This document shows, piece after piece, positions 12,400 through 49,451 of a stretch of DNA of 64,000 bases; within the stretch, counting starts at the first letter, position 1; each line of letters begins with the position of its first letter. Location: assembly GCA_017540825.1 (NCBI GenBank), contig JAFYAH010000025.1, positions 1 to 64,000 on the forward strand, given 5' to 3'. Position numbers and translations under genes: made by a program. The notes under the pieces are model-generated. The model saw only the letters and a program-made list of their open reading frames with translations. It was not told where the DNA came from and did no database searches. This stretch comes from Candidatus Methanomethylophilaceae archaeon (GTDB lineage: Archaea > Thermoplasmatota > Thermoplasmata > Methanomassiliicoccales > Methanomethylophilaceae).

Positions 12400-12570
12400 T
12401 ATCAGTATATCATCCCTTGCAGAAGTATTCGTATAGTTTACGATAGCAATCGGAAGTCATGTAGTGTCTATCGTATGGTATTCTATTGAGGTCCTTCAGG
12501 AAGTGTGATCGTCAATGTAAGGTATACTGTAATAGGAGGTGTCTCTGATGTGTGAGTCCAATAGTCAAGA

Positions 12571-12705: not shown

Positions 12706-12817
12706 CGGGGAACATGATATATAAATAAGATACTGAATATATTTACGTTATTTGAATCGTGCCTATCCCGTGGGACACACGATGTTCGTAGAGCACTCTG
12801 TTGGATTTTGTTCAGGA

Positions 12818-12848
12818 GGACCAGATGGAGGACGTCCTCCCCTGGTCC
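12818..12848. terminator. Long hairpin after the lamin-tail protein gene
   Basis: GGACCAG (12,818-12,824) pairs with CTGGTCC (12,842-12,848) and encloses the palindrome GGAGGACGTCCTCC. It lies 10 bases past the stop of the minus-strand gene ending at 12,859, so it is probably a 3' end or stability element of that mRNA. Confidence 0.6.
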
Positions 12849-12858
12849 AGAAGCGTTT

Positions 12859-15800
12859 TTACCATTTCACCGTGGCCTTGATCAGCCACAGGTCGTGGTC
12901 CATCTTGGAGTCCGCCCTTATGCCGTCCGGTATCCCCCCGAGGGGGCAGCCGCGTATGACCAGGCCGAACGTCGCCTCCGGTCTCCCGGCTTCGTCTCCG
13001 AAGATCCCGGAGATCGACGCGAGGTTCGTGCGGAACACGGCTTCTAGGTTGGCCTCCGGCAGGTCCATCCCGATCTTCAGCAGGTCGGGCATCCCGACCC
13101 TCGCATGGATGCCCACCTCGAGGTCCACGTCCTCCATGAACGCCTTCCCGAGGGAGATCGAGTACGGGTTGTCCATCCCAAGCAGCATCTCCTCCAGCTT
13201 CCCGGCAACGAATTTCAGGCAGTCCTCGGCCAGCTGGGAGTCCGTGCGCAGGGCGACCCTGAACCCTCCCTTCGCCGTGGAGGTCAGGTCGGCGACGTCC
13301 ACCGAGACGTACACGGACGCCTCGACCACGCATCCGCACACCTTGTCAATCACCCCGTCCACCGTGTGGAACACCAGCCTCTCCGTGAACCTCCCCAGGG
13401 ATTCGGTGTCGGTGATCTCGCCTATGTCGCCGAAGGCCTCCTGCACGGCTTCCCATGCTATGTCTTTCAGGTCTCCCGCGGAGATGGCCGCCTGCATGCG
13501 CCCGCCGTTGCTGGAGCCTCTGGTGCCCTTGGACAGCACCCATTCCGTCGACCCGTCGAACTCCCTGTGCCAGGTCTTCTCGTCGTTGTCGCCGTCCCTC
13601 AGGGTGGGGGTCTTGTCGACCACCGCCCCGTCCGGGTCCTTAAGCGTTATCGCCTCCCCGGAGCGGGTGTACTTGCCGGAGGAGTTCACCAGCAGGAACG
13701 TCGGCTCGACGTCCATGGCCTCTCCCGGCGCGATCGAGCCGGACAGGGCCATCACCTTCGTCTTCCAGTCGGAGGAAGCCGTGAGGGTGTAGCCGTCCAG
13801 GTCTATGGTGGACTCGGTGTTGTTGTACAGCTCTATCCACTCGTTCCCCCTGTCCTCGCCGGAGGGGTTGGACTCGAGCTCGTTTATCAGCAGCCCGAAC
13901 TTGATGGGAGCGCTGTACTTCAGGCTGAACCCCGCGTCCACCTCCGCCTTCGCCCCCAGGATCGGGAGGGGGATGTTGGACAGGGCCTCCCCGACGCCAG
14001 GCACGTCGGACAGCCTCAGGCCCATCTCGTGGTATTCGACCAGCTCCGGCAGGGATATGTTCACCGCCACCTTCCCGGCGCGGCCGTCCACGGTCAGGAG
14101 GTGCTTGCCGTTCTTCATGAACGGGTCCAGCCTGACCTTCACCTTCCACGGCGTCCTCCCGTCCTCCCCCGGGTCGACGATGCTCCCGAACCCGAAGAAC
14201 CGCACGTCGTCCGCCTCTATCCCTCCGGTCGTCTTCAGGGTGACTCCTGCGGTGACCGTGCGGCCCTCCTTGACCGTCGACAGCTCAAGGGTGAACAGGG
14301 TCTTGGTCTTCCCCATCAGGGACACGGCGTCCGTGGTTATCTTCAGGTCGTATCCCAGGAGGCTCATGGACACCGACTGCTTCCCGAACCCGATGCTTAT
14401 CCCGAAGCTCTCCGCCAGCTCCCTGAAGACGGGCTCCAGGCAGGACTCCGCCCACTTCGCGATGGCCTCCAGGGGGACGATGACGTCCTCGTACAGCTCT
14501 TCAATGTACGCAGACACGTACCTGGCCGCTTCCGAAACCTTGTCGCCGACGGCAGCCATGACCTTCTTGAGGACTTCCATCACCTTCTTCAGAGGCTCCA
14601 GGACAGGCTCCAGCAGCGGCAGGGCATTCTCCCAGAGGTCGGTCAGGACGGTGCAGCTGGGGCCGTACTCCACGCCGGCGAGGGCCCATCCGCTGGAGAC
14701 GACGACGTCGAAGCTCACGGACACCGGGAAATCCCCAGAAACCAGGCAGGACCTCGATCCCATGGAGGATGACATCGTCCCAGTCCCGGAGATCTCGTAC
14801 CTGACGTCGTCGGAGAGGGAGACGCTCAGCACCGTGACGTATCCGGCCATGGAGCCGTCCTCGAACCCGACAGAGTGGACGCACCTCTCCTGGGCTATCC
14901 TGGGGCCGGAGACCTGGGGGGACGTCGCTATCGAAGCCTCCAGCCTCTCGTACGACACCCCTCCTTCCGCCCTCTCCACGTCGAAGGCGCCCATGCCGGG
15001 AAGGCTGGCGACCTCTCCGCAGGCGTTCATGTCGCATGCCGACAGCATCTCCTCGCACATCAGCCGGAGCCGCTTTCCGACCAGGTCCGGGACCTTCAGC
15101 GAGCCCATGCCGACGGCGCACGCCTTGACGATAGCCCATTCCACGAACCCTCCGCGCCATTCCGGCATCTCGGCCGGGCTCTCGAACACCTTCATGTCGT
15201 CGTAGACCTTCGAGCGGTACGCCTCCAGGGCGGCCCTGTACGCCTCTCCGGACATCATCGACTCGGCCTCTTCCGGCGAGAAGGCCTCCGCCAGCGCCGA
15301 TCTGGCTCTGGACTCGAACTCCGCCTCCAGGACGTACGACCCTCTGTCCTCGAACAGCGCCGCGCAGACGGCTCCGCACAGCGGGTCGGAAACCCCGGCA
15401 TCGAGGACGGCGGAGGGCAAGGCCTCCCTGATGCCGTCGTCGAAGGCATCCAGCGCGGCGCTCACGGCTTCCAGGAGGGAGTCCGCGAACCTCCTCTCGT
15501 CGTGGGGGTCGGCCTCCACCACGACCTGTCCCAGCCCCTTGTCCTCGGCCAGCTGGAGGGCGGAAGCTCTCAGGACCGTCCTCAGCTGCTCCTTCAGCCA
15601 GCTCCTCTCGCTCTCGAAGCTGGTCCTGAAGCTCTTGATCCATTCCGTCTCCAGCACGTCCCTGGCGGGGTTCTCGAACTCCACCCTCTTCCCGTCTACT
15701 TCCAGGACGGTGGACCCCGATCCCGGGAACCTGTACCCGTCCTCGCCTATCCCGTTGATCTCCATGACCGCCTTCAGGTAGGGCGAGGCGTCGAACGGGC

Positions 15801-27018: not shown

Positions 27019-29101
27019 CGAGCAGGCTCTCGGGCACGTACCTGTCGTACTTCCCGAAGGCCAGTCTGTCGTCGCCCACGAGGTCGTACGCGAACCGGGG
27101 GTCCGAATAGCGCTCTATCGTCTCCTGGAGCTCCCCCCAGTCCAGCTCCGTGAGCACGTCGACGTAGTACGGAGGACGCTCCAGGACCTTGTCGCATACA
27201 AGCCTCAAGACCCTGCAGAGGGTGTCGAAGGCCGACGTGCCTACCCATGGAAATATCCTGAGCCAGCCGTTGATCTCCACGACGCCGTCCAGCATCCCGG
27301 ACTCCCTGGCGGCCTGCCTGCATCTCCTCAGCTCGTGCCTGGCGGACTCCTCTAGAAAACTATAGTCCTCCTCGGACTCCAGGACCTCCCTCATGCGCCG
27401 CATCACCATGTTGTCGGTCCCGGGGACTCCCGACTTCCACAGCGTGTTCGCCGACCCTTCCGTCTCCTCCACGTCGACCACCAGGGACTTGGGGTCCCTT
27501 CCCACGACCGTCCATATCCTCCCCGCGAGCTGTATGAGCTCCCCGACCTCCGGCATCTCCTGGATGGAGCCGACCTGCTTCCCTTCGCTCCTGACCTCTA
27601 TCTCCTTCTTCACGGTGAACACCGAGCAGAACGACCTGTCAGAGGCCAGCTTCTCGCTGGCGTCCGTTAGCAGGAGGGTGCCGTCCTCCATCTTCATCAG
27701 CAGCCCGCCGGATATCATGCCCTTGACCATCTCGGCGTAGTCCTCCTTGGGTATGCGCCGGAACGGGTACAGGGACAGGACGTCCGAGACCAGCGCGGAG
27801 AAGCGGGTCCCCGCGCCGCACCTTATGCCCTCCATCGTCTGGTGGAAGAGGAGCCCGTAGGGGAGCTCCGGGATCTTCGCGGGCTCGGTCCATCCGTCGC
27901 AGAGGACCAGGGTGGACATCGCCACCCCCTTGACCAGGTCTATGGACACGCCCTCTATCGACGTCCACCATTCGGTCAGGTCCTCGCGGCAGAACATCCT
28001 CATGGTCTGGGCGCCGCCGCGCCTTCCCGAGCGTCCCATCCTCTGCACCAGGCTGGAGCAGGTGTAGGGTGTGTCGATCTGCACGACGGCGTCCAGCGAC
28101 CCCACGTCGATCCCCAGCTCCAGGGTCACGGTGGAGACGGTCACCGTCTTCCTGGCGCCGTCCTTCAGGTTCTCCTCGGCCGTCTTCCTGAGGTCCTTGG
28201 AGATGCTCCCGTGATGGACGAAGACCTGGGTGTCCTCCCTCCTGGCCTTTGCCATCTTGGACAGGGAGCGCCCGGTCTTCTCCGCTATCACCCTGCTGTT
28301 CGTGAACACTATGCAGCTCTTCCCGCGGACCTCGTCGTAGAGGCGGCGGTAGTAGTCGTTGGCGGCCGCCACCCTGGCCTGGTGCGTCTCCGGGCCGTCC
28401 GCGGGGAAGCGGTAGAACAGCAGGGCCAGGTCCCTCTCTCCGATCCCGGGGTCGGACACGACCTCCGTCCTCCTTCCGGTCCCCGCCGAAAGCCATTCCG
28501 CCGCGGAAGCGGTGTCCGCTATGGTCGCGGAGAGCCCGATGCGCCTGGGCTCGCATCCCGCCAGGGTCTCCAGCCTTTCGAGGCAGCATAGCAGCTGCAG
28601 GCCCCTGTCGGAGCCCATGAACGCGTGCACCTCGTCTATTATGACGAACCTGAGGTCCCCGAACAGCCTGTCCAGGTCCTCCGGGCGGGACGCGACGATG
28701 TTCTGCAGCGACTCCGGCGTTATCTGAAGTATGCCCGATGGGGTGTCCAGCAGCTTCCTCTTGCTGTCCGCGCCTATGTCCCCGTGCCATCCGGTGACCT
28801 CTATGTACGAGTCCTTCAGCATGGGCTCCAGCCTCTGGAACTGGTCGTCGATGAGGGCCTTCAGCGGGCCGACGTACAGGACGCCGACGCTCCTGGGGGG
28901 GTTGCTGTACACGGAGGAGACGGCCGGGAACAGGGCGGCCTCCGTCTTTCCGCTGGAAGTCCCCGAGGAGATGAGAAGATGGCTGTCCTTCCCGAAGAGG
29001 ACGTCGAACGCGCGCTCCTGGACCTCTCTGAACCCTTCCCATCTGTTGGAATGGATGTACTCCCTGAGGAACCAGGGGAGGCTGCCGAACCGGTCGGTCA
29101 T
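26900..29101 (-). CDS. Lhr-like superfamily II DNA helicase (BrxHI/YprA-like)
   Basis: A 733-residue helicase: Walker A SSGTSSGKTEAALFP (near residue 48), DEVHAFMGSDRG as motif II, GLSATIADTASA as motif III, VFTNSR and a VQRMGRSGRRGG motif VI. Motifs and the extension resemble Lhr/YprA-type helicases; in BREX type 2 loci such a helicase is BrxHI. It starts at 29,101, overlapping the BrxD-like gene by 4 bases. Probably a DNA-translocating partner of the ATPase and TerB-like proteins upstream. The last ~25 residues (rich in R and S) are antisense to the convergent HTH gene. Beware: the frame extends upstream to 30,376 only as a shadow of the BrxD-like gene. Confidence 0.85.
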   Translation of the reverse strand: MTDRFGSLPWFLREYIHSNRWEGFREVQERAFDVLFGKDSHLLISSGTSSGKTEAALFPAVSSVYSNPPRSVGVLYVGPLKALIDDQFQRLEPMLKDSYIEVTGWHGDIGADSKRKLLDTPSGILQITPESLQNIVASRPEDLDRLFGDLRFVIIDEVHAFMGSDRGLQLLCCLERLETLAGCEPRRIGLSATIADTASAAEWLSAGTGRRTEVVSDPGIGERDLALLFYRFPADGPETHQARVAAANDYYRRLYDEVRGKSCIVFTNSRVIAEKTGRSLSKMAKARREDTQVFVHHGSISKDLRKTAEENLKDGARKTVTVSTVTLELGIDVGSLDAVVQIDTPYTCSSLVQRMGRSGRRGGAQTMRMFCREDLTEWWTSIEGVSIDLVKGVAMSTLVLCDGWTEPAKIPELPYGLLFHQTMEGIRCGAGTRFSALVSDVLSLYPFRRIPKEDYAEMVKGMISGGLLMKMEDGTLLLTDASEKLASDRSFCSVFTVKKEIEVRSEGKQVGSIQEMPEVGELIQLAGRIWTVVGRDPKSLVVDVEETEGSANTLWKSGVPGTDNMVMRRMREVLESEEDYSFLEESARHELRRCRQAARESGMLDGVVEINGWLRIFPWVGTSAFDTLCRVLRLVCDKVLERPPYYVDVLTELDWGELQETIERYSDPRFAYDLVGDDRLAFGKYDRYVPESLLVKAFGTDRLDFSYLDSIRDLRGRSSPIRTCSRRGLRSCT

Positions 29102-30369
29102 ACCTCCAGGTCCTCTATGAGGTCGTCGTCGGGGTTCCTGTCCGCCGCGAGGGACCTTCCGGAAACCATGTCTTCGAACTCCGCCTCGGGGTTCTGGTGG
29201 AGGGTGTCCAGGAGGCTGATGAGGTCCCTGGTGATCTCCCTGGGGGTGAGCATCTCCGACGACACCGACGACAGGATCGTACCCAGGTACACCTGGAGCT
29301 TCTCGTCGTCCACCTTCGACTTGTAGCCGTACCTCTCCTCGTGGAGGTTCCTTATGGTCCTCAGCAGGACGTATATCTCCTCGTTCGTGAGCGGCCTGAG
29401 GTTGATGACGGGGCCGAGGTAGTTGTCGTAGCCGTTCTCGTACTTGCCCTGCACCAGCCTGGACCTCAGCGCCTCGTAGCTGTAGAGCCCGCGGTTGGCG
29501 TCCTCGATGAACTCCGGGGTCCCGCACACGTACATCGAGAGGTGGGACGACTTCCCCTGCATTATGTCGTTGAACATCGTCAGGAGGCGCTCGTAGTTGT
29601 TGGACCTGGACGCCCTGTTCTGGAGCTTGTAAAGGACGACGGCCTCGTCTAGGAATACGATCAGTCCCTTGTACCCTATCCGGACCGCGAACTCCGCCCA
29701 GATCTTGACGAACCCGTACCAGTTGGAGTCGTTCACGGTCGAGTCCACGCCCAGCTTCGACCTGGCGTCCCTTTTGAGCTCCATCTCCCCGCGGAGCCAT
29801 CTCAGGGCAGGGCTGTCGTCGACGCCCTCCTCCAGGTCCCTGTAGTACCGCATGACCACCTTGAGGAAGTCGTTGAAGAAGGGCAGGGTGTTCATCCCGG
29901 ACACAGACCTCTTGAGCTCCGCTTCGACGGCGGAAGGGCTCGGATCCTCCGTGCCGGACTTCGCACGGTCCTTGGCGGACTCTATCCACTCCTGGAGCAG
30001 AGGCTCGAGCGCCCCGCTGTCCGGGCGGGTGTATATCGACATGTTCTTGACGAGCTCCATGTAGGTGTTGAGCCCCTCCTTCTTTGACCCCGTGAGCCTG
30101 CGGTCTATTGAGAGGTCTGCGTCCATGACCACGAACCCCTCCTTCATCGCCTTGTTGCGGACCATCTGGATCATGAAGCTCTTCCCGTTGCCGAAGCGTC
30201 CGGAGATGAACCTGAACGCCCCGCCTCCCTCGGCGGTGTCCTCGAGGTCGTGCACGAAGGTCTCCGTCTCCTTCCTCCTTCCTACCGCTATGTATTCCAG
30301 CCCGCTGCGGGGGACAACGCCCGACGAGAGGGCGTTCATCATCGTGGAGAGGGTTCTTTTCGGTATCAT
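29098..30369 (-). CDS. BrxD-like P-loop ATPase (DUF2791)
   Basis: A 423-residue ATPase. Family DUF2791 features are clear: YIAVGRRKETETFVHDLED, AFRFISGRFGNGKSFMIQMV (Walker A), VMDADLSIDRRLTG and LIVFLDEAVVLYKL (Walker B). Homologues are BrxD of BREX phage-defence systems and the ATPases linked to TerB-N proteins and helicases. I prefer ATG 30,369 (MIPKRTLS); TTG at 30,387 would add six residues. It directly precedes the helicase (4-base overlap) and follows the TerB-like gene, so ATPase and helicase probably work together on DNA. Confidence 0.8.
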   Translation of the reverse strand: MIPKRTLSTMMNALSSGVVPRSGLEYIAVGRRKETETFVHDLEDTAEGGGAFRFISGRFGNGKSFMIQMVRNKAMKEGFVVMDADLSIDRRLTGSKKEGLNTYMELVKNMSIYTRPDSGALEPLLQEWIESAKDRAKSGTEDPSPSAVEAELKRSVSGMNTLPFFNDFLKVVMRYYRDLEEGVDDSPALRWLRGEMELKRDARSKLGVDSTVNDSNWYGFVKIWAEFAVRIGYKGLIVFLDEAVVLYKLQNRASRSNNYERLLTMFNDIMQGKSSHLSMYVCGTPEFIEDANRGLYSYEALRSRLVQGKYENGYDNYLGPVINLRPLTNEEIYVLLRTIRNLHEERYGYKSKVDDEKLQVYLGTILSSVSSEMLTPREITRDLISLLDTLHQNPEAEFEDMVSGRSLAADRNPDDDLIEDLEV

Positions 30370-30412
30370 GGGCCAATCGTCCTGCAATCGCGCATCCGTT
30401 ATTATTCTTTTC

Positions 30413-32677
30413 TCAGAGGCTTTTCACAAGGGCTTCGAGGCGGTCGGCGTAGTCCTCGACGGCGCGTCCGTCCTCCACGACGACGTCCCCCACCGTGTCC
30501 ATGGCCGCCTCGTTCACCGCCCTCTCCATCCTGAGGTCCGGGCGCCTGCCTTCCAAGCATTCTGAAATGTACCGGATCTGCTCCGGGGACAGCCTGGACG
30601 CGAGGTGCTTCCACGGGTCCCCGCCGGAGGTTTCTTCAGAATGCTTCGCCGGGGAGGTTCCGGCGGGTTTTTCTGTCTCCTCCGCGACGTTCATCAGGCT
30701 GGTCACGACCTCCAGGTCCTCGGCGGCTGCGTTCACGGCCTCCATGTCCAGCTTTACGCTCTTCTTGGAGGACTCTGCTATTGAACGTTTGTACAGGGCG
30801 GCCCTCGCCGCCTCCTTCACGATGTCGCGGTTTTTGCTTCCCAGGCCGGCGGAACCGCGCGCGACGCCGCTCTTCTGGACGGAGCGCACCACGTTGCGGA
30901 CGCCGCTGAGAAACCCGATCGCGCCGTCCATGTCCTTGAGCGTCCTGACCGCGGCCGACGCCGGCATGCACGCGCAGCTCTCGAAGACCTTGATGTTGGA
31001 TTCGGAGACGGCCGCGCTGAATAGCTCCCCCAGGGAGTTCCCGTAGCGGCGGTATAGCTCGCCTACGGCCGCGTTGACCAGGTCCGCCTCGACGTCCGAG
31101 CACTCGTCCATGCACAGGCGTGCGATGAGGCCGCTGCTCAGGCGCCCAGGCGGGTCGGAGGTCAGCGCCGCGGTGGCCAGGACGTTGACGCGGGCGCTGT
31201 CGCAGAGCAGCTCGGAGACGTCCGCCTCCAGGCCGTTGAATATGCACCAGTCCGCCATCACGGACTCGACCATGGCGCGGGAGCCGCCCTCTGCGACGAG
31301 CCTGCACAGCCTCAGGGCCTCCATTGCGGAAACAGGGTCGAGCGAGTCGTCGTGTATTATTTCGTTCGCTAGCAGCCAGACGAAGCCCTCTATGCTCTCG
31401 GCGGGCTCGCCTCTCAGGACCGAGTCCTTCCACGACTGGTAGAAGGAGTACTCGTCCAAGGTCATCCTGGAATAGCACGGCGTGCGGCTGTTCGGCACGG
31501 CCTTCCCGAGGGCGTACGGCATGGGGATGTCCCTGTAGTCCGCCATCCTGGACACGAAGCGGTAGCTCGGCCAGGTCCCGTCTCTCCGGCTGGGTATCGC
31601 GCTTCCGTCTAACGGCACGGCGGGGCTTCCGGCGAAGCCGATCGAGGGCTTGCTCTTCCTGTAAGGCGTCGTCATGGCGTCGAGCCTGCCGTCCCTCCAC
31701 GCCTCCACGCATCTGTCCAGGACTCCCTGGAACCCGGACATGCTCCCCGTCATGGGCGCGCTCTTCCCGGCCAGCCTGGCCGCGCACGCCTTATGCAGCC
31801 CCTTAGCCAGGTCCGCGAACATCCGGGAGCCTTTCACGTCGCGGCATCTCAGGACGACGGGAGGGATCAGGGAGCCCAGCATGTCCTCCCTGAACGGCAT
31901 CGCTATCTTCATGTCCACGAGGCGGTCGCACATGTCCAGCACGCTCTTCCCTCCCAGCCCCCTGCCGATCTCGTGGAGCGCGGCGCTGACGATCCTGGCA
32001 TGGTCTGCAGATTTGCTCCTGGCGAGCCCGGTGATGAAAGAGAGGTCGTCCGGGGACAGGGGGACGAAGCGGTCCGAGGACAGGATCCTGTTGATCCTTA
32101 TGGTCCTGTACTGCCTGTCGAGGTCTTCCGCGTCCTCGATCTCTAGCCCGTGGACGAGCTCGAAGTACCTGCAGGCGCTGCTCAGGATGCCGTCTACCCG
32201 CCTGTTCTGCCCCCTGTACGCGTCGCGCATCCTGACGAGGCAGTCGTGGTTCTCATCGGGGTCGTCGTCCACGACCAGGAGCTCCAGCGCGTGCAGCCAT
32301 ACGTATCCCGCGTCCGTCTCCAGGCATGCTCCTTCGTAGACCCTGCGCCTCCAGTAGAGGAAGTAGCGCAGGCGCCCCCATCTGAGGTCGTCGTGCAGGG
32401 GATGGAGGAGGAGGCTCTTGACGTAGCCGCATTCCTCGCCGCCGTACCTCCAGTGCGCGTTGATCGCGTCCATCGACGCGGGGCTCGCCAGGTTGTCCTT
32501 GAACCCCTCCTCGGAGCGGACGAGCTCGGCGTCCTCGATCGGGACGTGCTCCTGCGCCGGGGCCGCTTCGTCCCAGCGGCGTGGGAAAGGGTTGCCGGCG
32601 CGCTTCTCGGCCTTCTTCCCTTGGCTCTTCTTCTCAGGCTTCGAGGCCTCGTTCTGGATCCTGTATATTCTGGCCAA
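30413..32677 (-). CDS. TerB-N/TerB-C domain protein, copy 1
   Basis: At least 754 residues. It has two TerB-N-like modules, with RYFLYWRRRVYEG and GYVWLHALELLV near residue 100 and SFYQSWKDSVLRG with GFVWLLANEII near 410, and a C-terminal TerB-C-like segment (SVKLDMEAVNAAAEDLEVV, about 640). The final ~75 residues (DPWKHLASRL to AMDTVGDVVVEDGRAVEDY) match the end of the next gene upstream, so the two are paralogues. TerB-N/C proteins are known in predicted DNA-processing and stress systems with helicases and ATPases. TTG at 32,677 is the first standard start, but open coding-like sequence continues to 32,767, where ATT follows GGGAGGGG; an unusual start there is possible. Confidence 0.6.
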   Translation of the reverse strand: MARIYRIQNEASKPEKKSQGKKAEKRAGNPFPRRWDEAAPAQEHVPIEDAELVRSEEGFKDNLASPASMDAINAHWRYGGEECGYVKSLLLHPLHDDLRWGRLRYFLYWRRRVYEGACLETDAGYVWLHALELLVVDDDPDENHDCLVRMRDAYRGQNRRVDGILSSACRYFELVHGLEIEDAEDLDRQYRTIRINRILSSDRFVPLSPDDLSFITGLARSKSADHARIVSAALHEIGRGLGGKSVLDMCDRLVDMKIAMPFREDMLGSLIPPVVLRCRDVKGSRMFADLAKGLHKACAARLAGKSAPMTGSMSGFQGVLDRCVEAWRDGRLDAMTTPYRKSKPSIGFAGSPAVPLDGSAIPSRRDGTWPSYRFVSRMADYRDIPMPYALGKAVPNSRTPCYSRMTLDEYSFYQSWKDSVLRGEPAESIEGFVWLLANEIIHDDSLDPVSAMEALRLCRLVAEGGSRAMVESVMADWCIFNGLEADVSELLCDSARVNVLATAALTSDPPGRLSSGLIARLCMDECSDVEADLVNAAVGELYRRYGNSLGELFSAAVSESNIKVFESCACMPASAAVRTLKDMDGAIGFLSGVRNVVRSVQKSGVARGSAGLGSKNRDIVKEAARAALYKRSIAESSKKSVKLDMEAVNAAAEDLEVVTSLMNVAEETEKPAGTSPAKHSEETSGGDPWKHLASRLSPEQIRYISECLEGRRPDLRMERAVNEAAMDTVGDVVVEDGRAVEDYADRLEALVKSL

Positions 32678-32762: not shown

Positions 32763-34862
32763 TTAATCGGATCCCCTCCCTATCGCTTCGAGGACGTCGC
32801 TGATGTAGTCTTCTACGATCCTCCCGTCCTGCACCACGATGTCGCCGACGGTGTCCATGGCGAGGGAGTTTATGGCCTTCTCCGCCCTGAGGTCCGCGGC
32901 GCATCCAGAGGAGGACTTCGAAAGGTACTCCCTCATGCCGTTGTCCAGGCCTGCGGCGAACTCTTTCCAGGGATCGTCGGAAGGACTATAGTCTGTCTTC
33001 TCTTCCTCGGCGAGCGTCTCGCGCTCATCCTCCTCCTCGACGCCCATCATCGCGGTGACGTCCCTCAGGTCGGACTCCGCCTGGGAGATCGCGTCCTTGT
33101 CCAGCTTTATCCTCTTTGGCGCCCTGCCCGCCGGCTTCCTGTCCGCCACGCTCCCTGTGAGAAGGTATTCCACCAGCTTCTCCTCGTCTACGCCGAACAC
33201 CTTTATGGGTTCTCTCGGCTGTCCGCGGGCTATCCTTTCGGACTCCTCCACGATGTATTCGGCCAGCTCTCTGAAGCTCCGCCTCATCTCCTCGTCCTTG
33301 GCGAAGTCGGCGAACTTTATCGCCAGAACGAGGCTGTCGCGGTCGGAGCGGTAGTAGGCCAGCTCCTCGTACAGCCTCCTCTCGTGAACCGACTTCCGGC
33401 ACAGCGAAGGCGCGTCCTTGCCGGTGTTCCTGAGCATCAGCGAGCTTGCGTTCATGAGGGTCCTGCGCATAGTCTCCTCCATGGTCGGGTCGAACGCCCT
33501 GTCGACGTCGGTCCCGAGGAGGCCCGCTATGCGGAGGAGGACCTCCTTGTCTGGCTTGGCCTCCATGCATCCGCCCAGGTACTGCTGCATCACCATGCAG
33601 GCCTCGTCGTCGCCGTCGGCCAGCGTCGGGTCGGGTATGGGCAGCCTGTTCTTCAGCGCGAAGTCCATGCAGGTCCTGCGTATCAGGGAGGATGAGGGGC
33701 TGTCGCGGTAGGCGTGGTGCATGTCCGCGAGGCAGCCCAGGACGCTGCGAGGGTCGTTCACCGAGTTCACGAGGCTGCACAGGCGCATCCAGACGTACCC
33801 TGTGTCGGCGTCGTGGTGCCTCCCCGAGTCCGCTTCAGACGACCATGCAGCATAGAACCTCCTCTGCGCGTCGGAGAGCGTCCTGTAGTCGGGGCGGCTG
33901 CTGCCCGACGGGACGTAGGACGGGATCGGGCCGTCCGGTCCATGGACGCTCGCGCTTCCGGACCTCTTCATTCCGACGGGAGGGTCAGCTCCGAACAGCT
34001 CGGTGCCTATCTTCATGAGGTCGGTCTCTCTTCTGGACACGGGCATGCGGACGGACCCGTTCTCGGTGCGCCTGGCGGCAGAGCCGCTTTTGACACAAGG
34101 GTCGGAGATGCGACGAAGGAACGATCTGGACGGCACTCCCTTGCCGGTGACGTAGAGGTATACGTCTTCGAGCAGGCCGTTCACGCTGTCGCCGAAGACG
34201 TCGTACGTCACCAGGTACGTCCTCGTCCCGAACACGGCGCATCCGGGGAACAGGTCCCTCAGGACCGTCTCGGACCCCAGCAGGTGCTCGTCGGACCATG
34301 CGCGGGCCAGCATCTCGGCGAACTCCTTCACGCCTCCGGGGCGGCCGGCGACCTCCTCCGCCCTTCTCTGGCCTATTAGCGCGCCCAGGCGGGCCTCATC
34401 GATGCGGGAAGGGTCCCAAAGGGACTCGGAGACCATCATCTTTCTTGCGACGTCGTCCTCGGCATGCTCGGCCACAGGGATGGGGAGGCCGCCCGCGATG
34501 CACAGGTCGGCGGCCATCCTGTCCAGGTCCTCCGGGACCATGCCGATCTCGGCCGCATGAGCCTTCAGGACGGCTACCTCCCCGAGGCCCTGGGCGGAAT
34601 CGGGTGAGTTGGCGAGCTCGCATAAGCGGAGCCAGACGTATCCCTTCTCGGCCCGCAGGAGCTCCCCCTCGGAAAGGCGCCGCCTCCACCAGAGGTAATA
34701 GTACAGCTGGGGCTTCTCCAGCAGGGAGTAGTCGGGAGTCAGAAGGTCGCAGGGCACGAAAGGATGCTCGATCCCGGGGTAGTTCCTGTACCATGCCATC
34801 ATGGACTCGAACTCGTCGCTGGGCTCGCAGCTCCTGTAGCGCTTGCGCGGTGGCTCCGACAT
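32763..34862 (-). CDS. TerB-N/TerB-C domain protein, copy 2
   Basis: A 699-residue paralogue of the downstream TerB-like protein. Two TerB-N-like modules are at about residue 55 (LYYYLWWRRRLSEG, GYVWLRLCELANS) and about 335 (RFYAAWSSEADSG, GYVWMRLCSLVNS); TerB-C-like IKLDKDAISQAESDLRDV is near 586, and the ending AMDTVGDIVVQDGRIVEDY matches copy 1. Start MSEPPRKR at 34,862 follows HSP90 by 92 bases; longer frames upstream are shadows of that gene. First gene of a four-gene operon with copy 1, the BrxD-like ATPase and the helicase. TerB-like domains are thought to assemble at membranes or with metal-dependent DNA processing; the exact job here is unknown. Confidence 0.65.
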   Translation of the reverse strand: MSEPPRKRYRSCEPSDEFESMMAWYRNYPGIEHPFVPCDLLTPDYSLLEKPQLYYYLWWRRRLSEGELLRAEKGYVWLRLCELANSPDSAQGLGEVAVLKAHAAEIGMVPEDLDRMAADLCIAGGLPIPVAEHAEDDVARKMMVSESLWDPSRIDEARLGALIGQRRAEEVAGRPGGVKEFAEMLARAWSDEHLLGSETVLRDLFPGCAVFGTRTYLVTYDVFGDSVNGLLEDVYLYVTGKGVPSRSFLRRISDPCVKSGSAARRTENGSVRMPVSRRETDLMKIGTELFGADPPVGMKRSGSASVHGPDGPIPSYVPSGSSRPDYRTLSDAQRRFYAAWSSEADSGRHHDADTGYVWMRLCSLVNSVNDPRSVLGCLADMHHAYRDSPSSSLIRRTCMDFALKNRLPIPDPTLADGDDEACMVMQQYLGGCMEAKPDKEVLLRIAGLLGTDVDRAFDPTMEETMRRTLMNASSLMLRNTGKDAPSLCRKSVHERRLYEELAYYRSDRDSLVLAIKFADFAKDEEMRRSFRELAEYIVEESERIARGQPREPIKVFGVDEEKLVEYLLTGSVADRKPAGRAPKRIKLDKDAISQAESDLRDVTAMMGVEEEDERETLAEEEKTDYSPSDDPWKEFAAGLDNGMREYLSKSSSGCAADLRAEKAINSLAMDTVGDIVVQDGRIVEDYISDVLEAIGRGSD

Positions 34863-41445: not shown

Positions 41446-44400
41446 TCACTTGCTCTTTCCGCGGAGGAACAGGGCGGCGCCCAGTATGGCGACGATGGCG
41501 ACGATACCTGCCCCAGCGTATAGGAGCAGGTTGCCGGACGCGCCTCCTTGGGGCTGCTCCTCTACGGTAACCTCGCAATAGGCCTTGAGGGCCTTGTCGA
41601 CGGATATGGCGGTGATGGTGGCCTTCCCGGGAGATACGGCCTTCACGTTCCCGTCCTGGTCGACGGTCGCGACGCTCGCATCGCTGGTCATCCAGTCGAC
41701 CTCCTTGAGGCTGGCGTTGGCCGGGGCGATGGTGGCCGTGAGCTTCTGCGAGCTTCCTTCCTTCAGGCTGATCCTGGCCTTGTCCAGGGTAATGCCGGAG
41801 ACAGGCACGTCGTCTTCCTGGACTGTCACCTCGCAATAGGCCTTGTAGGCGCCGTCTACGGATATTGCGGTTATCTTGGCCTTCCCGGGCGAGACCGCCC
41901 TAACGTTCCCGTCCTGGTCGACGGTCGCGACGCTGCTGTTGTCGGACGACCAGTCCACTTCTCTCAGGCTCGCGTCTGCCGGGTACAGCGTAGCAGTCAG
42001 CACGGCTTTGTCTCCTATGCCCATGGACAAGGTGTCTTTGCTCAGGGAGATGCCCGTGACATGCTTGTCGGCCTGGCTCACGGTCACCATGCAGCTCGCG
42101 ACCACGAATCCTCCGCCAGAGGAAGCCGTGATCGTGGCTGTCCCTTTGGAAACGGCCGTCACGTTTCCGCTCTGGTCGACTGTAGCTACATTGGCGTTGC
42201 TCGACTTCCATGCCACAGCGTCGGTGGAATCGGAAGGGGTCAGGGTGGCTATGAGCTGGATCGAACCCCCTTCGTACAAGGAAGCCGATGCACGGTTGAG
42301 CTTTATTCCCTTCGCAGGTATCGAGTCCGAGAAGACGCTGACGCTGCAGGATGCGGTCTTGGACCCGTCATGGGTCGTCACGGTTATGGTAGCGCTCCCT
42401 GCGGAGACGGCTTTTACGTTCCCGTCCTGGTCGACTGCGGCCGCCGATGGGTTGCTGGATGCCCAGGACACGGATTTGTCGGTGGCGTCGGACGGCGATA
42501 TGGTGGCGGTCAGCCTGTATGTGCCGCCAGCATGCATCTCCAGATAGGTCCTGTCCAGCGACACGCTCGATACCGGCACGGAAGAAGGCCCTGCCACTGT
42601 TATGGAGCAGGTGTCCGTGTACCCTCCGTCGATGGTCCTGACGGTTATGGTAGCGCTTCCTGTTCCGACCGCCTTCACGGTCCCGTTGCTGACGGTGGCC
42701 ACGCCGATGTTGCTGCTGGTCCAGGTCACCGTCTTGTCTGTCGCGTCGGCAGGCCTCACCGTCGCGGTCAGCGAGAGGCTCTCGCCTTTGCTCAGGCTCA
42801 CAGAGCTTCTGTCTATGTCGACTCCGGTCACCGGGACGCCGGTCGAGGGGGCCTTGTAGTCTGCGTAGTACACTGACGGATAGACGATGTCGGTCACCAC
42901 GCGTCCCTTCATGGCCGCGCTGCCCCTGAGGAAATAGCTGTACGTGCTGCCGGTGTCGTCCCATGTGGCGTCGACGAAGTACCAGTTGCCGTCCTCCATC
43001 TGGACGAAGTTCCATGTATGGCCTTCCTCGTCCCCCGCATGCGCCAGCCCGGCCACGTAGACGCAGGGGATGCCGTGGATGTCGCAGAGCATCTTGAAGG
43101 CGGCGGCGTACGTCTCGCACACCCCCTTGTGGTCTCCGAGGACGGCGTTGTAGATGCAGTGGTACCTGTGGGTGACCGTGTCCTCGTAGCTGTACGTGAT
43201 GAGGTCGCAGACGTAGTCGTGGATGGATTTCACCTGGGCGTATCTGGACGAGCCGTCGACCTTCACGCCGCGGAGGGCGGAGACGGTCCTGTCGTAGCTG
43301 CTCCTGTCGAAGCCCGTTCCCTTCAGTACTTTGATGGTGCCGGTCGACGGGTCCACGTCCACGTTCGACATGAAGTCGTACCCGTCCTCCTCGTCCCATA
43401 CCTGGCGGTAGTCCTTCTTCAAGGATCTCTGGACCTTCTCCATGACGGTGATGGCGTACTCCACGAGGTCGTCCTCGGACATGCCAGAAGGCAGCTTCAC
43501 CGAAGATTCGGTCCCTTTGGTTATGGCGGCGGCCACGGCGTCGTACAGCCTCTTCTCCACCGCGCTCAGGTCGCTGTAGCCAGGAAGCCCGTCGTATTCC
43601 AGGGTCGTGACCGTCCTGGCCTTGGCGGGGACGGAGGCGGACACGGGGCATCCGCAGAAGGAACCCTCTCCGAAGCTCTTCACCGAGCCGAGGGAGCCGG
43701 CGCTGGACAGGGACATGCACCCGTAGAACGCCATGTCCCCGATGGAAGCGACGGTGCTAGGGATGCTTACGGACTCCAGGGCGGAGCACCAGTAGAAGGC
43801 CTTCTTCCCGATAGTAGTCACGGAGCTTCCGAGCTTCACGGAGGTGAGGCTCTGGCATCCGTAGAGCAACTCGTCCGATACGGCCTTGACCGAGCCGCTG
43901 ATAACGACCGAAGCGAGGGAGCCGCAGCCGCTGAATGCTCCCCTGCCCAGGCTGCCTACGCCGTCTGGCACGGTCACGGATCTGAGGCCGCTCGCGCTGA
44001 AGGCTTCCGCGCCGATAGCGGTCACGGATGCCGGGATGGTCACGTAGCTCAGGCTCGTGCACCCCATGAACGCCTCGTCACCTATCCTCTTGACTGTGGT
44101 GGGGATCGACACGGCGCCCAGGGACATGCATCCGCTGAACGTCCCCTTCTCGATCGCAGCCACTCCGCTCGGGATGCTGATCGACTTGAGGCCGAGGCAC
44201 TTGCAGAAAGCCTCCTCGCCTATGGATCTGACCGACGAGGGCAGCGCCACGCTTCCCAGGCTGGAGCATCCGTAGAACGCCTTCTCGCCTATGCTCGTGA
44301 CGCTGCCGGGGATGCTCACGGAGCTTATCCAGCTGTTGCGGAACGCGTTGTCGCCTATGTGCGTGACGCCGTATCCGATCGTCACCTCGCTGATGGTGAA

Positions 44401-44664
44401 CATGCCTGCCCATGGGGCGTCCGCGCCGCTGTAGTCGTACATGGCGCCGCTCCCTGTGATCCTCAGGGTCTCGAACCCCACTATCTCGTAGCTCACGCTG
44501 TCTCCGCATTTCCCTGGCGCCGCATCGGACTGCTCCGATGTCGCAGGGATCAGGGCCAGGACGCAAACCGCCAGAGCCAGCAGGGCCGTCGTCCTCCAGA
44601 CGCAGGAGGTCCTGTGACGGAGAGACTGGTTGTCGTTATTGCCTGTCGTGCTCATTTTCATCAT
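41446..44664 (-). CDS. Surface protein: BspA-type LRR, transglutaminase-like, five Big2 domains
   Basis: A 1,072-residue exported protein. A signal peptide (TTALLALAVCVLALIPA) precedes ten or so BspA-type leucine-rich repeats (residues ~85-345; repeats such as VTSIGEKAFYGCSSLGSVALP). About 480-600 is a transglutaminase-like domain with C (GVCETYAAAF), H (GHTWNFV) and D (FVDATWDD). Five Big2 domains and a C-terminal membrane helix (NLLLYAGAGIVAIVAILG) followed by RGKSK complete it. BspA repeats mediate adhesion; the catalytic-triad domain may crosslink or cleave. The last two Big2 repeats are nearly identical in DNA, implying recent duplication. The start at MMKMSTTGN could be one to three codons later. 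Confidence 0.8.
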   Translation of the reverse strand: MMKMSTTGNNDNQSLRHRTSCVWRTTALLALAVCVLALIPATSEQSDAAPGKCGDSVSYEIVGFETLRITGSGAMYDYSGADAPWAGMFTISEVTIGYGVTHIGDNAFRNSWISSVSIPGSVTSIGEKAFYGCSSLGSVALPSSVRSIGEEAFCKCLGLKSISIPSGVAAIEKGTFSGCMSLGAVSIPTTVKRIGDEAFMGCTSLSYVTIPASVTAIGAEAFSASGLRSVTVPDGVGSLGRGAFSGCGSLASVVISGSVKAVSDELLYGCQSLTSVKLGSSVTTIGKKAFYWCSALESVSIPSTVASIGDMAFYGCMSLSSAGSLGSVKSFGEGSFCGCPVSASVPAKARTVTTLEYDGLPGYSDLSAVEKRLYDAVAAAITKGTESSVKLPSGMSEDDLVEYAITVMEKVQRSLKKDYRQVWDEEDGYDFMSNVDVDPSTGTIKVLKGTGFDRSSYDRTVSALRGVKVDGSSRYAQVKSIHDYVCDLITYSYEDTVTHRYHCIYNAVLGDHKGVCETYAAAFKMLCDIHGIPCVYVAGLAHAGDEEGHTWNFVQMEDGNWYFVDATWDDTGSTYSYFLRGSAAMKGRVVTDIVYPSVYYADYKAPSTGVPVTGVDIDRSSVSLSKGESLSLTATVRPADATDKTVTWTSSNIGVATVSNGTVKAVGTGSATITVRTIDGGYTDTCSITVAGPSSVPVSSVSLDRTYLEMHAGGTYRLTATISPSDATDKSVSWASSNPSAAAVDQDGNVKAVSAGSATITVTTHDGSKTASCSVSVFSDSIPAKGIKLNRASASLYEGGSIQLIATLTPSDSTDAVAWKSSNANVATVDQSGNVTAVSKGTATITASSGGGFVVASCMVTVSQADKHVTGISLSKDTLSMGIGDKAVLTATLYPADASLREVDWSSDNSSVATVDQDGNVRAVSPGKAKITAISVDGAYKAYCEVTVQEDDVPVSGITLDKARISLKEGSSQKLTATIAPANASLKEVDWMTSDASVATVDQDGNVKAVSPGKATITAISVDKALKAYCEVTVEEQPQGGASGNLLLYAGAGIVAIVAILGAALFLRGKSK

Positions 44665-44832: not shown

Positions 44833-45981
44833 ATGAGCAGCCTATGCGACCTGTTCGTCGAATTCGCCTCCCGCTATCCCTCCGCCAGAAAGGAGAGCCT
44901 GAGAGGCCATCCTGTGGCCGACCTCATGAGGAAGGGCATCGCAGGCGGCATCTCCGCCACCGGGGTGTTCGGAGACGGCTACATGGTTCGCGGAAGCGTC
45001 GGGAAGGGAGGCTGGGCTGAGATACCCTGGGCGGCCGTGTTCGATCTAGATGAGACCGACACTCTGCATCATGGGCTCTTCGTCCTCTTCGTCTATTCCG
45101 CCGACATGGGATCCCTGTTCCTTTGTCTGAACCAAGGCAGCGTCACCTTTTTCGACTCGCACGGCAGGGCGGAGACAAACAGGCATCTGGAGGAGAACGC
45201 GGCTGCGCTGCTGGGGGACCTGGACACCGAGGGCTTCGACACCGGCCGCATAGACCTGAAGGCCACCAGCAGCGTCGGGAGGTTCCTCGAGACCGGGTGC
45301 ATATGCAGCCGGAGGTACGACGTGGGCGATCTTCCCTCGGACGACAGGATCAGGGCCGACCTCGTGGATTTCAAGGGCCTGTACTCCAGGGCGATGGAGG
45401 CGGAGCGCAGGCTGGGCCTGGACATGGCCATACCGGGCAGGCGAACCGTCGTGCCGGTCGGGTTCTTCCAGGAAAGGGACGCTGTAGCCGTAGCCAGAGC
45501 AGCCGTCGGCATGATCCTGTGCCGCAGGATGCCGGACGGCGAGGTCCTGAGGAGGCGCATAACCGAGACGGAGGCGTACACGGGGGAGGACGACACCGCC
45601 GCCCACGCCCGCTTCGGCCGCACCGGCAGGAACAGGGTGCTGTACGAGGACGGCGGCAGGGCGTACGTCTACCGCTGCTACATGTTCTGGCTGCTGAACC
45701 TGACCGCGGGCGGGGAAGGCGACCCGCAATGCGTCCTGATAAGGGGCGTGGAGGGGGCCGAAGGTCCAGGCCGCGCCTCCGAGCTGATGGGCTTCCGCAA
45801 GGACATGTACGGGGACCCTCTGGACGAGGAGCACGGGCTGTGGCTGGAGGACGACGGCTTCCGTTCGGAGGTCGAGTCCGGCCCCAGGGTCGGGATCCCA
45901 TATGCCTCGGAGGCGGACAGGGAGGCTCCCTTGAACTTCAGGCTTAAGCCGCGGCGATGCGACGGGCCCGTCCCATATTAA
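44833..45981 (+). CDS. Fusion: McrB-N-like domain and AAG-type DNA glycosylase
   Basis: A 382-residue protein. Residues ~1-190 resemble the McrB N-terminal (DUF3578) DNA-binding domain: GKGGWAEIPWAAVFDLD, then HGLFVLFVYSADMGSLFLCL and a late basic part. About 206-375 are an AAG/MPG 3-methyladenine DNA glycosylase: FFQERDAVAVARAAVGMILC, RRITETEAYTGEDDTAAHA with the catalytic glutamate, YVYRCYMFWLLNL, QCVLIRGVEGAEG and GPRVGIPYA. The McrB-N domain of type IV restriction enzymes reads modified cytosines, so this fusion may send a glycosylase to modified DNA. TATA-like GGATAAATTTGG at 44,803 lies 30 bases upstream; mRNA is nearly leaderless. I do not know of this fusion in other genomes. Confidence 0.75.
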   Translation: MSSLCDLFVEFASRYPSARKESLRGHPVADLMRKGIAGGISATGVFGDGYMVRGSVGKGGWAEIPWAAVFDLDETDTLHHGLFVLFVYSADMGSLFLCLNQGSVTFFDSHGRAETNRHLEENAAALLGDLDTEGFDTGRIDLKATSSVGRFLETGCICSRRYDVGDLPSDDRIRADLVDFKGLYSRAMEAERRLGLDMAIPGRRTVVPVGFFQERDAVAVARAAVGMILCRRMPDGEVLRRRITETEAYTGEDDTAAHARFGRTGRNRVLYEDGGRAYVYRCYMFWLLNLTAGGEGDPQCVLIRGVEGAEGPGRASELMGFRKDMYGDPLDEEHGLWLEDDGFRSEVESGPRVGIPYASEADREAPLNFRLKPRRCDGPVPY

Positions 45982-46079: not shown

Positions 46080-47168
46080 TCACAGCACGCCCATGTCCGT
46101 GAGCTTCTCCGGGAGGTACGTGTCCGTCACGTAGTCCAGGCCGTACTTGGCCAGCGCCTGCTGCTCTGACTTCTTCTTCATCTCCAGCATGGTCTGTATC
46201 TCGGTTACCCAGAACTCGTCCGCGAACCTGGGGTCGCTGAGCTCCGCGTTGAGCGCGCCGATGTCCTTGTCGTTCAGCTTGTCCGTGGGCAGGCTGTAGT
46301 TCAGGATGTCGGAAGCCGTGACGCCGATGAACTGGGCAGTGGGAGTCGCCAGGTACTCGGAGATGTGCGCGGTCTTGATGGCCCCGTAGGCCACCGACGC
46401 GAATATCCTGAACGACCAGGGGTCGCCGTCGGTGAAAACGGTCACAGGGAGGTCGTACTCCTCGTTCAGCCTCTTGATCAGGCGCCTTGTCGACCTCGCT
46501 GGCTGCCCGCTCAGATGGACCAGCGCGCAGTCGTACTTCTCGGGGAACCCGTTCTCGATCAGCCTGGCGTACATACCTCCTGTCTCTATCGCCATGATGA
46601 ACTTCGTGTTGCCGGGATCGATCTGGAACGTGTCCTCCTCCACCTTGTACGGGACGGCGAATCCCGCCTCGGACACGTCGTCGATGCAGTTCATGGTCTT
46701 CATGCCCTTCTTGGTCATGGTGGTGAAGTTCAGATCGCCGTAGACGTGGGCCCCTGACTCCTCCGGGCGGAGCTTGAAGTCCTCCCTCATGCACCCGGTG
46801 ATGGTCTCCAGATCCTCGGCGAGGAGGTTGCTCTCGTCCTGGGAGTGGAACTTGGCGTTGTTCCATCCCTCGGATATGTAGTACATCTCCCTTAAGGTGG
46901 ACGACTTGCTGTCGCGGATCATGTCGTTGATGAAGTCGGACGTGTACACCGTCCTGAGCATCATCACCGCTCCGTTGACCGTCTTCGCCGTGCGCGACGT
47001 CTTCAGGTCCCCGTAGGTCCAGACGCTGTGGCGGCTGTCGAACTCGATGTTCTTCTTGGACCTCAGGGGCAGCTCCATGGCGGGTATGTCCCCTCCGTCG
47101 AGCTGGTCGTAGATCCCCTCGACGACTCCGGTGAGGCTGTCGAGCGCTTTCTGCTGTCTTTCATTCAT
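46080..47168 (-). CDS. top6A: DNA topoisomerase VI subunit A
   Basis: A 362-residue Spo11-like subunit that cuts both strands. The catalytic tyrosine lies in [14 protein letters not shown] (about residue 98), and the toprim acidic residues are in [11 protein letters not shown] and [10 protein letters not shown]. The end contains [12 protein letters not shown] and [12 protein letters not shown]. Start [11 protein letters not shown] at 47,168 overlaps the end of top6B by 8 bases, so the two are translationally coupled. Confidence 0.95.
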
Positions 47169-49197
47169 CGTCAAGGTCCTCATCCTCCTCCTCTTCCTTC
47201 TCGTCGTCGTCCGCCACGTAGTCGTCCGCGGACTCTACTATCTCCATTCCCTTTATCCCCCAGTCGCCGGGGAGCATCTCGGCGCCCATCACCATCACCG
47301 GGTTGAGGCCGGAGAAGTAGATGTCGTCCGCGTCGAAGGTGTCGGCCATGTCCCCCGTGAGGTCGAAGGTTATGGAGACGTTCGTGGACGGCTGGATGTC
47401 CTTGATCTCCCAGTTGGCCTTCCCTTCGTCGTTGATGTCCAGGAAGTAGGGGGACGAGTACACCGACAGGTCCTTCAGGCACTCCTTGGGGAGCTGGGCG
47501 TGGAGCCTGAAGGTGCGGACGGTGCTGGTGTAGTTGTAGACCGTGTAGGTGACGGTGCGCTTGGACTTCCCGTCCTTCTTGACGGAAGGCTCGATCCACA
47601 CGACGTTCATGATGCGGGTGATGGTCCTGTCGAGGTTCGGGACGGGCCTTCCGAGGTGCTCGGCCGCCTTCTTCGCCATGTCCGGGAGGATCTCCTGAAC
47701 GATCTCGAACTTCGCGTGCGTCTTGTTTTTGCGCTCCATCTTGTTCAGGTGGCTCTTCAGGTTCCTGGCGCAGAGCCTCAGGGCGAGCCCTATCTCGCTC
47801 TGCAGCTCGGGGAACCCTGCTACCGCCTCCTTCCCTTCAGAGGTGAACGGGACCTTGGTGGAGGCCACGTGGACGAGTATTATCGCGGGCCCGAAAGGTA
47901 TGCCTTTCCCTCCCCTCTGCTCCAGGCCGTACCTCCTCCAGTCCATCTCCGATATGGCCTTAGTTATGGCGCAGGCGCCCTGCTGGTACAGGAGCGGCAC
48001 GCGGTTGGCGAACCTGAGTATCTGGACCTGGCTGTCGGAGGGTATGTCCCCGCCGTAGACGATTCCCGCCTCGACGACGAACGGGTTGCCGTTCACGGCC
48101 TTCGGGGAGCGGGTGACCGGGGTGGCGTAGTACTCGGGGCGGAGGCCGTCGAGGACGTGCATCAGGCCCTTCTTGATGAGGGTGTCCCCTATCGGCGACA
48201 GGCAGTCGGTCGGAGGGGCCATTATCTTCACCTGCTTTATTGCGTCCAGGATGGCGATGGCCTCCTCGCGCGTCAGCTTGCCGGGGCTCTTGGAGCCGTC
48301 GACCTTGGATATGTCCAGGATCTCCTTGGTCAGCCTGTCCGTTATCCTCGAGAAGTCGTTCTTCAGGAACGCCGCCACCGTCTTCTGGGCCGAGTTGCTG
48401 GAATACTTCAGCAGGTCCCCGATTTCCATGCCTTCCGGGTGGGGCTTGATCTCCTTCGGCCTCGGGGGCATGATGTCGGTCGCCCTCTCGAACACGTACT
48501 TCTTGCCCTCCGGGTCGTGGAACGTGATCTGGGCATGGGGGTTCACTATGGCGGTGTTCTTCAGGTACTCGAAAACTGATTGCTTCCCGGTGATGTACCT
48601 TCCCTTTATGGTGTACTCTATCCTGGTGCCGTGGTCCTTCCCTTCCCATTTGAACACGTTCTCGTTGGATGTTATCGGACGGTTCTTCTTGGTGTCGATT
48701 ACGATGTCCATCTCGTTGGCCATCTCGAACTCGCCCTCTATCTTGGAGACCACATGGGCGGGCTTGCCGGTCGTTATGTTCCCGTACATGACCGTGGCGG
48801 ATATGCCTATCCCCTGCTGCCCTCTGGACTGCCTCAGCGCATGGAACCTGGACCCGTAGAGCAGGCGCCCGAACACGTTGGGTATCATCCTGTATACGAT
48901 CCCGGGGCCGTTGTCCTCTATGGATATGTGGTAGTCCTCGTCGTCGATCTTGTCTATGCGCACCTCTATGTCCGGGAGGATGTTGGCCTCCTCGCATGCG
49001 TCGAGGGAGTTGTCCACGGCTTCCTTTATCCCCATAAGCAGGGATTTAGAGCGGGAATCGAATCCGAGGATCTGCTTGTTCTTCTCGAAGAACTCCGTCA
49101 CGGAGATCTCCTGCTGCTTGGCGGCCATCTGTTCCGCCGTCGGGGCCTTCTTCTTGGTGGTGGAGGCCGGCTTCTTGTTCTCGCTGTCTGAGGGCAT
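47161..49197 (-). CDS. top6B: DNA topoisomerase VI subunit B
   Basis: A 678-residue GHKL ATPase subunit of archaeal type IIB topoisomerase. The Bergerat fold is seen as [38 protein letters not shown] and [18 protein letters not shown]. The transducer domain and H2TH region follow; the C-terminus is strongly acidic ([12 protein letters not shown]), an extension beyond the usual end. It relaxes and decatenates DNA with top6A. ATG at 49,197 (MPSDSENKK) is preferred to one at 49,230. Confidence 0.95.
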
Positions 49198-49451
49198 CCG
49201 GGCCTGCAATAGAATCGTGTTTCTTAACATTTGTCGCAGATTCTATCAGGATAGCGTATTTGGACGCAGAGTCGTATATTCAGCCTTTTGTCATCGAAGA
49301 TGCGGGTGCGGTCACCAAAAATCGTAATGTTCTCGGCAGGCTTGTATCTTCGAAACACGAGATCATCGGTCAAGCAGTGAATTGCACGCATAACCATTAT
49401 ATGCTGAGGGCCGGGATTGGAAATCGCCAGGGTGGGAGTCCGGCGCGCAGG

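Follow-up and report, generated by a model that had tools for sequence, protein, structure and literature searches.

What would a DNA-reading domain of the McrB type do when it is joined, in a single chain, to a DNA glycosylase of the AAG/MPG type? This question is raised by a gene at positions 44833-45981 of a 64,000-nucleotide stretch of archaeal DNA (hereafter the window, meaning the whole stretch analysed), taken from a 2.37-Mb MAG of a genus of Methanomethylophilaceae for which 31 species genomes were sampled, and whose named relatives come from the rumen and the sheep omasum. An earlier note had read residues ~1-190 of the product as the N-terminal domain of McrB-type restriction enzymes, and the remainder as an AAG-type glycosylase carrying its catalytic glutamate in an ETEAY motif. 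Strand cleavage by type IV enzymes upon reading a modified base, and removal of a modified base from phage DNA by Brig-type glycosylases, are defence strategies known separately; in the fusion described here a genuine type IV reader is linked to a glycosylase. Following profile searches, structural modelling, phylogenies and comparison of gene neighbourhoods, we consider it probable that the protein is a reader-tethered, active glycosylase, and we weigh its possible roles in defence and in repair.

Results

A McrB-type domain fused to a DNA glycosylase

The gene forms a transcription unit of its own, flanked by one divergent and one convergent neighbour. The features referred to below are:

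44833-45981, forward strand: MrcB_N-AAG fusion gene, 382 aa, ATG start
44833-45414, forward strand: N-terminal McrB-type reader domain, residues 1-194
45004-45093, forward strand: predicted base-flipping pocket region (K58, W66, F83, V87), from the hhalign column map, a 23-sequence column check and PMC3874153
45415-45459, forward strand: inter-domain linker, ~residues 195-209, from model and alignment
45460-45948, forward strand: AAG/MPG-type DNA glycosylase domain, residues 210-372
45571-45573, forward strand: catalytic glutamate E247 (human AAG E125), from the phmmer alignment to 1f4r
45604-45606, forward strand: pocket histidine H258 (human H136), from the phmmer alignment
45697-45699, forward strand: N289 (human N169), from alignments
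41446-44664, reverse strand: surface protein with BspA-type LRR, transglutaminase and Big_2 domains, divergent neighbour
46080-47183, reverse strand: DNA topoisomerase VI subunit A, convergent neighbour
47161-49230: DNA topoisomerase VI subunit B, after subunit A

Profile searches with PF12102 and PF02245, as the note had suggested, gave matches far above the curated cut-offs for both. PF12102 (MrcB_N, DUF3578) matched residues 13-185 with 124.7 bits (E=4e-36; cut-off, 25 bits), and PF02245 (Pur_DNA_glyco, methylpurine-DNA glycosylase) matched from residue 212 with 126.1 bits (E=1e-36; cut-off, 27 bits), a second piece reaching ~residue 372. The boundary read at ~190 also agrees with the model of the N-domain, whose last helix stops at residue 194 and is followed by a linker of ~15 residues. 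The two-domain reading of 44833-45981 is confirmed.

The reader domain and its predicted base pocket

E. coli K-12 McrB itself matched PF12102 by hmmscan over residues 20-101 with 28.8 bits, which is weak but above the cut-off, and the family profile aligned to E. coli McrB-N with 95% probability (hhalign). The AF2 model of the N-domain (pLDDT 91.9, pTM 0.90) had as its 20 best PDB matches in Foldseek exclusively E. coli McrB-N/DNA complexes, with probabilities of 0.97-1.00, TM scores of ~0.6 by target length and modest E values of ~2e-3, and the scores fell sharply below them. A search of 14 control genomes gave no match to PF12102, which had raised the suspicion that this family differs from the E. 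coli McrB domain; the idea was dropped, since E. coli McrB passes the cut-off and the folds match.

In E. coli McrB-N a pocket takes up the flipped base, whose methyl group is contacted by Tyr64 and Leu68, and the gap in the helix is filled by Tyr41, a non-conserved residue (PMC3874153). According to the hhalign map, E. coli Y41, W49, Y64 and L68 correspond to K58, W66, F83 and V87 of the fusion protein. The pocket residue Trp66 is retained in 22 of 23 aligned sequences; the Tyr64 position is F83 in the window protein and V in the G026 species, and the Leu68 position is V87 in the window protein and I in the others, both being hydrophobic but changed. Furthermore, position 152 is leucine in all six archaeal copies; tyrosine occupies it in each of the 17 relatives that do not belong to the archaeal clade. 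Judging from these alignments, in which Trp66 is kept and positions 58, 83, 87 and 152 are changed, the base pocket of the reader is retained but altered. That the fusion might read modified cytosine we infer solely from E. coli McrB-N, to which its reader is ~25% identical over 80 aligned columns.

The glycosylase domain

The C-terminal half also matched TIGR00567 (3mg) with 129.3 bits against a cut-off of 116.35, and phmmer aligned the fusion protein to human AAG at 2e-23. In the alignments, human E125, Y127, H136, Y159, Y162, N169 and R182 correspond to E247, Y249, H258, Y280, Y283, N289 and R304, all seven of which are present in the window protein; the catalytic glutamate sits within ITETEAY, as the note had it. 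Human N169, the guanine-excluding residue, is kept in the fusions as N289, and two other fusions carry histidine at the position of the intercalating Tyr162. The genus's stand-alone AAGs carry histidine at human positions 159 and 162 and threonine at 169, and are therefore more altered than the fusion; the substrate range of these short stand-alone enzymes (L055, L058-L063) probably differs from that of canonical AAG. As the damaged-purine residues Y249, H258, Y280 and N289 are kept, the pocket of the fusion does not appear visibly retuned to modified cytosine or to a phage base.

The fusion AAG is a short form that lacks a ~24-residue loop and Gly163 of human AAG; compared with canonical AAG, all aligned AAGs of the family are without Gly163 and ~24 further residues. 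The missing loop falls within a stretch of human AAG that shows partial disorder. In the AF2 model, the AAG half was poor (pLDDT ~30), having only four close alignment rows, and therefore no structural claim is made for it.

Distribution, selection and origin of the fusion

The full, uninterrupted fusion was found in four MAG species of one genus, namely that of the window (G000), G018, G001 and G026, the last three stemming from separate studies. The proteins share 74-88% identity, pairwise dN/dS of the whole gene is 0.085-0.19, with both domains similar, and conservation of the linker equals or exceeds that of the domains (84-100% identity at residues 191-209 across the four species). A chimera, an assembly artefact or chance is ruled out by the intact fusion in four independent MAG species and by purifying selection. 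The fusion proved neither widespread nor already described: a pattern scan of 84,980 species genomes (~85,000) found none outside the genus, a distant fusion being able to escape a scan built on conserved peptide patterns, and the open papers searched on DUF3578, McrB, glycosylase defence and restriction glycosylases describe no such protein. PF12102 itself was not found in other genera of the phylum among 390 genomes, save for one partial, sub-threshold match.

Within the genus the distribution is patchy, with the fusion in 4 of the 31 genomes plus one remnant, and 19 genomes without any AAG; across the family, AAG is present in 17 of 102 genomes and is confined to two genera. The fusion is the sole MrcB_N and the sole AAG detected in the window's own genome, and fusion and stand-alone AAG never occur in the same genome. 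In seven sister species the stand-alone AAG occupies a conserved site between a CBS-domain gene and a Mrp/MinD-like gene, and this site is intact but empty (~98-194 bp) in all five fusion or remnant species; the Mrp/MinD-like locus was located with an approximate probe, and synteny was then tested with real sequences.

In the AAG tree the fusion AAGs form one clade (100/98), placed inside a group shared with AAGs of another genus, g19 (97/92), and the genus's own stand-alone AAGs form a separate clade. The possibility that the genus's housekeeping AAG had moved beside the reader was rejected, since the tree groups the fusion with g19 instead. The reader copies of the genus also form one clade (100/100). 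The simplest history is a single fusion event between a reader gene and an AAG gene, followed by inheritance within one clade.

The G001 and G018 species additionally carry a stand-alone reader, 55-60% identical, close to methyltransferase-type and SngA/SngB-like genes. Stand-alone MrcB_N genes of ~200 aa without an effector lie on the reverse strand at 9466-10134 of L056 and 9656-10246 of L057, in syntenic places, with SngA/SngB-like genes ~3-5 kb off. The remnant in G029 (L054, 1-669) is a truncated AAG at a contig edge, 70% identical to that of the window, without the reader and without the first part of AAG, and may be a decayed fusion or a mis-assembly.

A phage or virus origin was also considered and rejected. 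Among phages and viruses, the reader domain was found only at two loci on viral contigs, whose proteins both end in NOV_C, and in two Listeria phage records lacking annotation, and the fusion protein matched no PHROG model. It matched no PADLOC model either.

Relatives of the reader carry restriction-type effectors

Among PF12102 relatives sampled from plasmids, GTDB genomes and viral contigs, MrcB_N was in most cases joined to a restriction-type effector, namely a McrB GTPase accompanied by an adjacent McrC gene (L069), AAA (AAA_5; L071, L072, L081), EVE and AAA (L067), HNH (L065, L068, L079, L082, L083) or NOV_C (L087, L088), and in a few had no recognised effector (L066, L070, L080); no glycosylase effector was found in this sample. 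Two of these loci lie in islands with ABC-3C, N6-methylase, TIR or SIR2 genes. Given the variety of these restriction-type effectors, MrcB_N acts like an interchangeable reader within enzymes of restriction type, the AAG domain being a swap of effector chemistry.

Gene neighbourhoods

In the window's species and in G018 the fusion is flanked by a BspA-like surface gene and, at its other end, by convergently oriented topoisomerase VI genes; in G001 its flanks are a sodium:alanine symporter gene and a BspA-like gene. None of the three loci is a clear defence island. The convergent neighbour in the window, topoisomerase VI subunit A, is shared only with the nearest species. An operon with topoisomerase VI was rejected, as the genes are convergent and the neighbourhood is not conserved past G018. 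No McrC-type gene was found among the fusion neighbours examined.

The G026 locus has one defence-type neighbour. There, the ATG of the fusion and the stop codon of the gene before it overlap (TGATG); that preceding gene encodes a DUF2075/SLFN-g3 helicase (PF09848) whose N-terminal part looks, by eye, PD-(D/E)XK-like, that is, nuclease-like. The closest bacterial helicase tested, from a Priestia plasmid, is 44% identical over 623 aa, and its gene lies two genes from an MrcB_N-HNH gene, adjoining a MazG-like gene; helicase homologues likewise lie near MrcB_N genes in Bacillus OV166 and in two Paenibacillus records. Among 72,556 plasmids, MrcB_N occurs in 20, the helicase in 40 and both within ~2 kb in 3, where 0.01 is expected (hypergeometric P ~2e-7), and two of those three plasmids are from related Paenibacillus. 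Neighbours of the helicase gene in sister archaea include cas9 in G014, a CRISPR array in G016 and a MazG-like gene in G021. The helicase neighbourhood thus favours defence. The physical link between helicase and fusion is seen in G026 only: the gene lies elsewhere in G018 and G029, and is lacking in G000 and G001.

Regarding methylation, the window's genome encodes three C5-cytosine methylases, so that a reader of 5mC in general would encounter the cell's own DNA, and the reader cannot simply attack every 5mC. No PF00145 methylase was found in the three other fusion species, and co-occurrence with C5 or N4/N6 methylases across the genus was uninformative.

Discussion

A proposed two-headed, base-flipping glycosylase

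We propose that the protein would act as a two-headed, base-flipping DNA glycosylase. The reader would bend the DNA and flip or clamp a non-standard base by way of the minor groove, in the manner of McrB-N, and the linked glycosylase would excise a nearby modified purine; the resulting abasic site would be broken by host AP endonucleases or by heat, or would block polymerases. McrB-N bends DNA and flips its base through the minor groove, and human AAG does so in the same sense (PMC3874153), thus the two heads would be mechanically compatible. The most likely role of such an enzyme, by a small margin, would be a single-chain, modification-dependent "base-excision restriction" directed against mobile DNA, in which the nuclease of a type IV-like system has been swapped for a glycosylase. 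Glycosylases are proven anti-phage effectors in the case of Brig1 (PMC11078745) and Brig3 (PMC13160076), and R.PabI is a restriction glycosylase (PMC4615327).

We give a defence role, as such, somewhat short of an even chance. The architecture and the gene-neighbour evidence lean towards it, the points in its favour being an intact fusion under selection, the restriction-type effectors of the reader's relatives, the overlap with the helicase gene in G026 and the patchy distribution. The points against it are the damaged-purine pocket, the status as sole AAG, the ordinary loci in G000, G018 and G001, the helicase link in a single species, the self C5-methylases and the lack of PADLOC or PHROG matches. 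The more specific proposal, that this is an archaeal modification-dependent restriction by base excision in which an AAG-fold glycosylase acts on modified mobile DNA once licensed by a McrB-type reader, with reading and excision acting on different bases within one chain, is put forward tentatively.

The strongest rival is that the protein is an ordinary methylpurine/hypoxanthine glycosylase, serving as the organism's AAG for base-excision repair, and that the McrB-type domain it acquired helps it to bind DNA or to search for lesions. Its status as the genome's sole AAG, mutually exclusive with a stand-alone AAG whose locus is empty in all fusion species, together with the canonical AAG residues of its purine pocket and its stable inheritance (low dN/dS, a single AAG clade with 100/98 support) lean towards repair, and three of the four loci lie outside clear defence islands. 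Conversely, 19 of the 31 genomes of the genus lack AAG, which makes the AAG repair step dispensable there; the relatives of the reader bear restriction-type effectors, the fusion's AAG belongs to a different lineage from the stand-alone AAGs of the genus, and in G026 the gene overlaps that of the DUF2075 helicase in an operon-like manner. We regard repair as a possible, rather doubtful explanation; defence is slightly favoured over it, a choice that sequence alone cannot decide.

Another possibility is an editor resembling eukaryotic MBD4, in which a DNA glycosylase is coupled to a reader of methylcytosine; here the reader would recognise methylated sites in the host's own DNA, leaving the glycosylase to remove damage at or near them. 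The C5-methylases of the window's genome are compatible with this idea, but the three other fusion species yielded no PF00145 methylase and the AAG family is not known to act on T:G mismatches, and we consider it improbable. Least probable of all is that the glycosylase serves as a binding domain only, or that coupled catalysis has been lost, as the short AAG without the ~24-residue loop and Gly163 and the low-confidence model of the C-terminal domain might suggest, since all seven catalytic and pocket residues are in place in the window protein, purifying selection extends over the AAG domain, and the missing loop falls in a partly disordered stretch of human AAG.

Comparison with known systems

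Turning again to the proposed base-excision restriction, the reader belongs to the same Pfam family and has the same fold as the N-domain of E. coli McrB (DUF3578/ADAM), with the pocket tryptophan kept and the two methyl-contacting positions hydrophobic or aromatic but changed; unlike McrBC, however, the fusion has no AAA+ GTPase, no McrC and no phosphodiesterase (PD-(D/E)XK or HNH), its effector being a glycosylase. The MrcB_N-HNH, -AAA and -NOV_C proteins of Bacilli, haloarchaea and others have the same N-domain and the same reader-then-effector order, and share the DUF2075-helicase neighbour with G026, whereas their effectors are nucleases or NTPases and not AAG. Compared with AAG/MPG enzymes (TIGR00567), the catalytic and base-pocket residues are the same, and the difference lies in the short form joined to a reader.

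Brig1, Brig2 and Brig3 resemble the fusion in being single-protein glycosylases acting on modified DNA, the mode of action proposed here; however, they are UDG-derived in their authors' view, have no separate reader, lie in defence islands, and recognise and excise the same base, whereas the fusion glycosylase is PF02245 by sequence and so does not belong to the Brig-type family. With R.PabI/HALFPIPE enzymes the likeness is restriction by base excision, but the fold is unrelated, and these enzymes excise unmodified adenine at a sequence site and are blocked by methylation, the opposite logic to that proposed for the fusion. MBD4 likewise combines a modified-base reader with a DNA glycosylase, although both folds are unrelated and it repairs T:G mismatches. 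The fusion is therefore neither McrBC nor Brig and, if our reading holds, would work like a cross of both.

If the proposal is true, a restriction reader would be modular down to its effector chemistry, glycosylase defence would take in archaea as well as the AAG family, and a small, expressible protein would be at hand in which reading and excision are separable by mutation. If the role is in repair, the protein would be a prokaryotic parallel to MBD4.

Further observations at the loci

MrcB_N genes recur beside the DUF2075/SLFN-g3 helicase at L053 (G026, 12032-13936), L065 (6110-8364), L083 (6143-8129) and L068 (6708-7794), sometimes with a MazG-like pyrophosphohydrolase; MrcB_N with this helicase, with or without the MazG-like gene, is possibly an undescribed multi-gene defence system of archaea and Bacilli. 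In the window, a SngB-like BrxC/D-type ATPase (PADLOC, 485.9 bits) and a TerB_C/SngA-like gene lie on the reverse strand at 29098-32677, and this Shango-like SngA/SngB pair, ~12-15 kb from the fusion, seems to be preceded by a second TerB-like ORF at ~32763-34850. On another contig of the same genome (C50; L127, 804-9077), a C5-methylase lies beside HATPase, Z1 and AIPR genes, forming a cluster of restriction or abortive-infection type. Finally, a partial Cas9 (REC lobe and bridge helix by Pfam) is found at 3-1226 of L132, beside the helicase gene of G014, a single-contig methanogen genome of the genus; archaeal genomes seldom carry Cas9.
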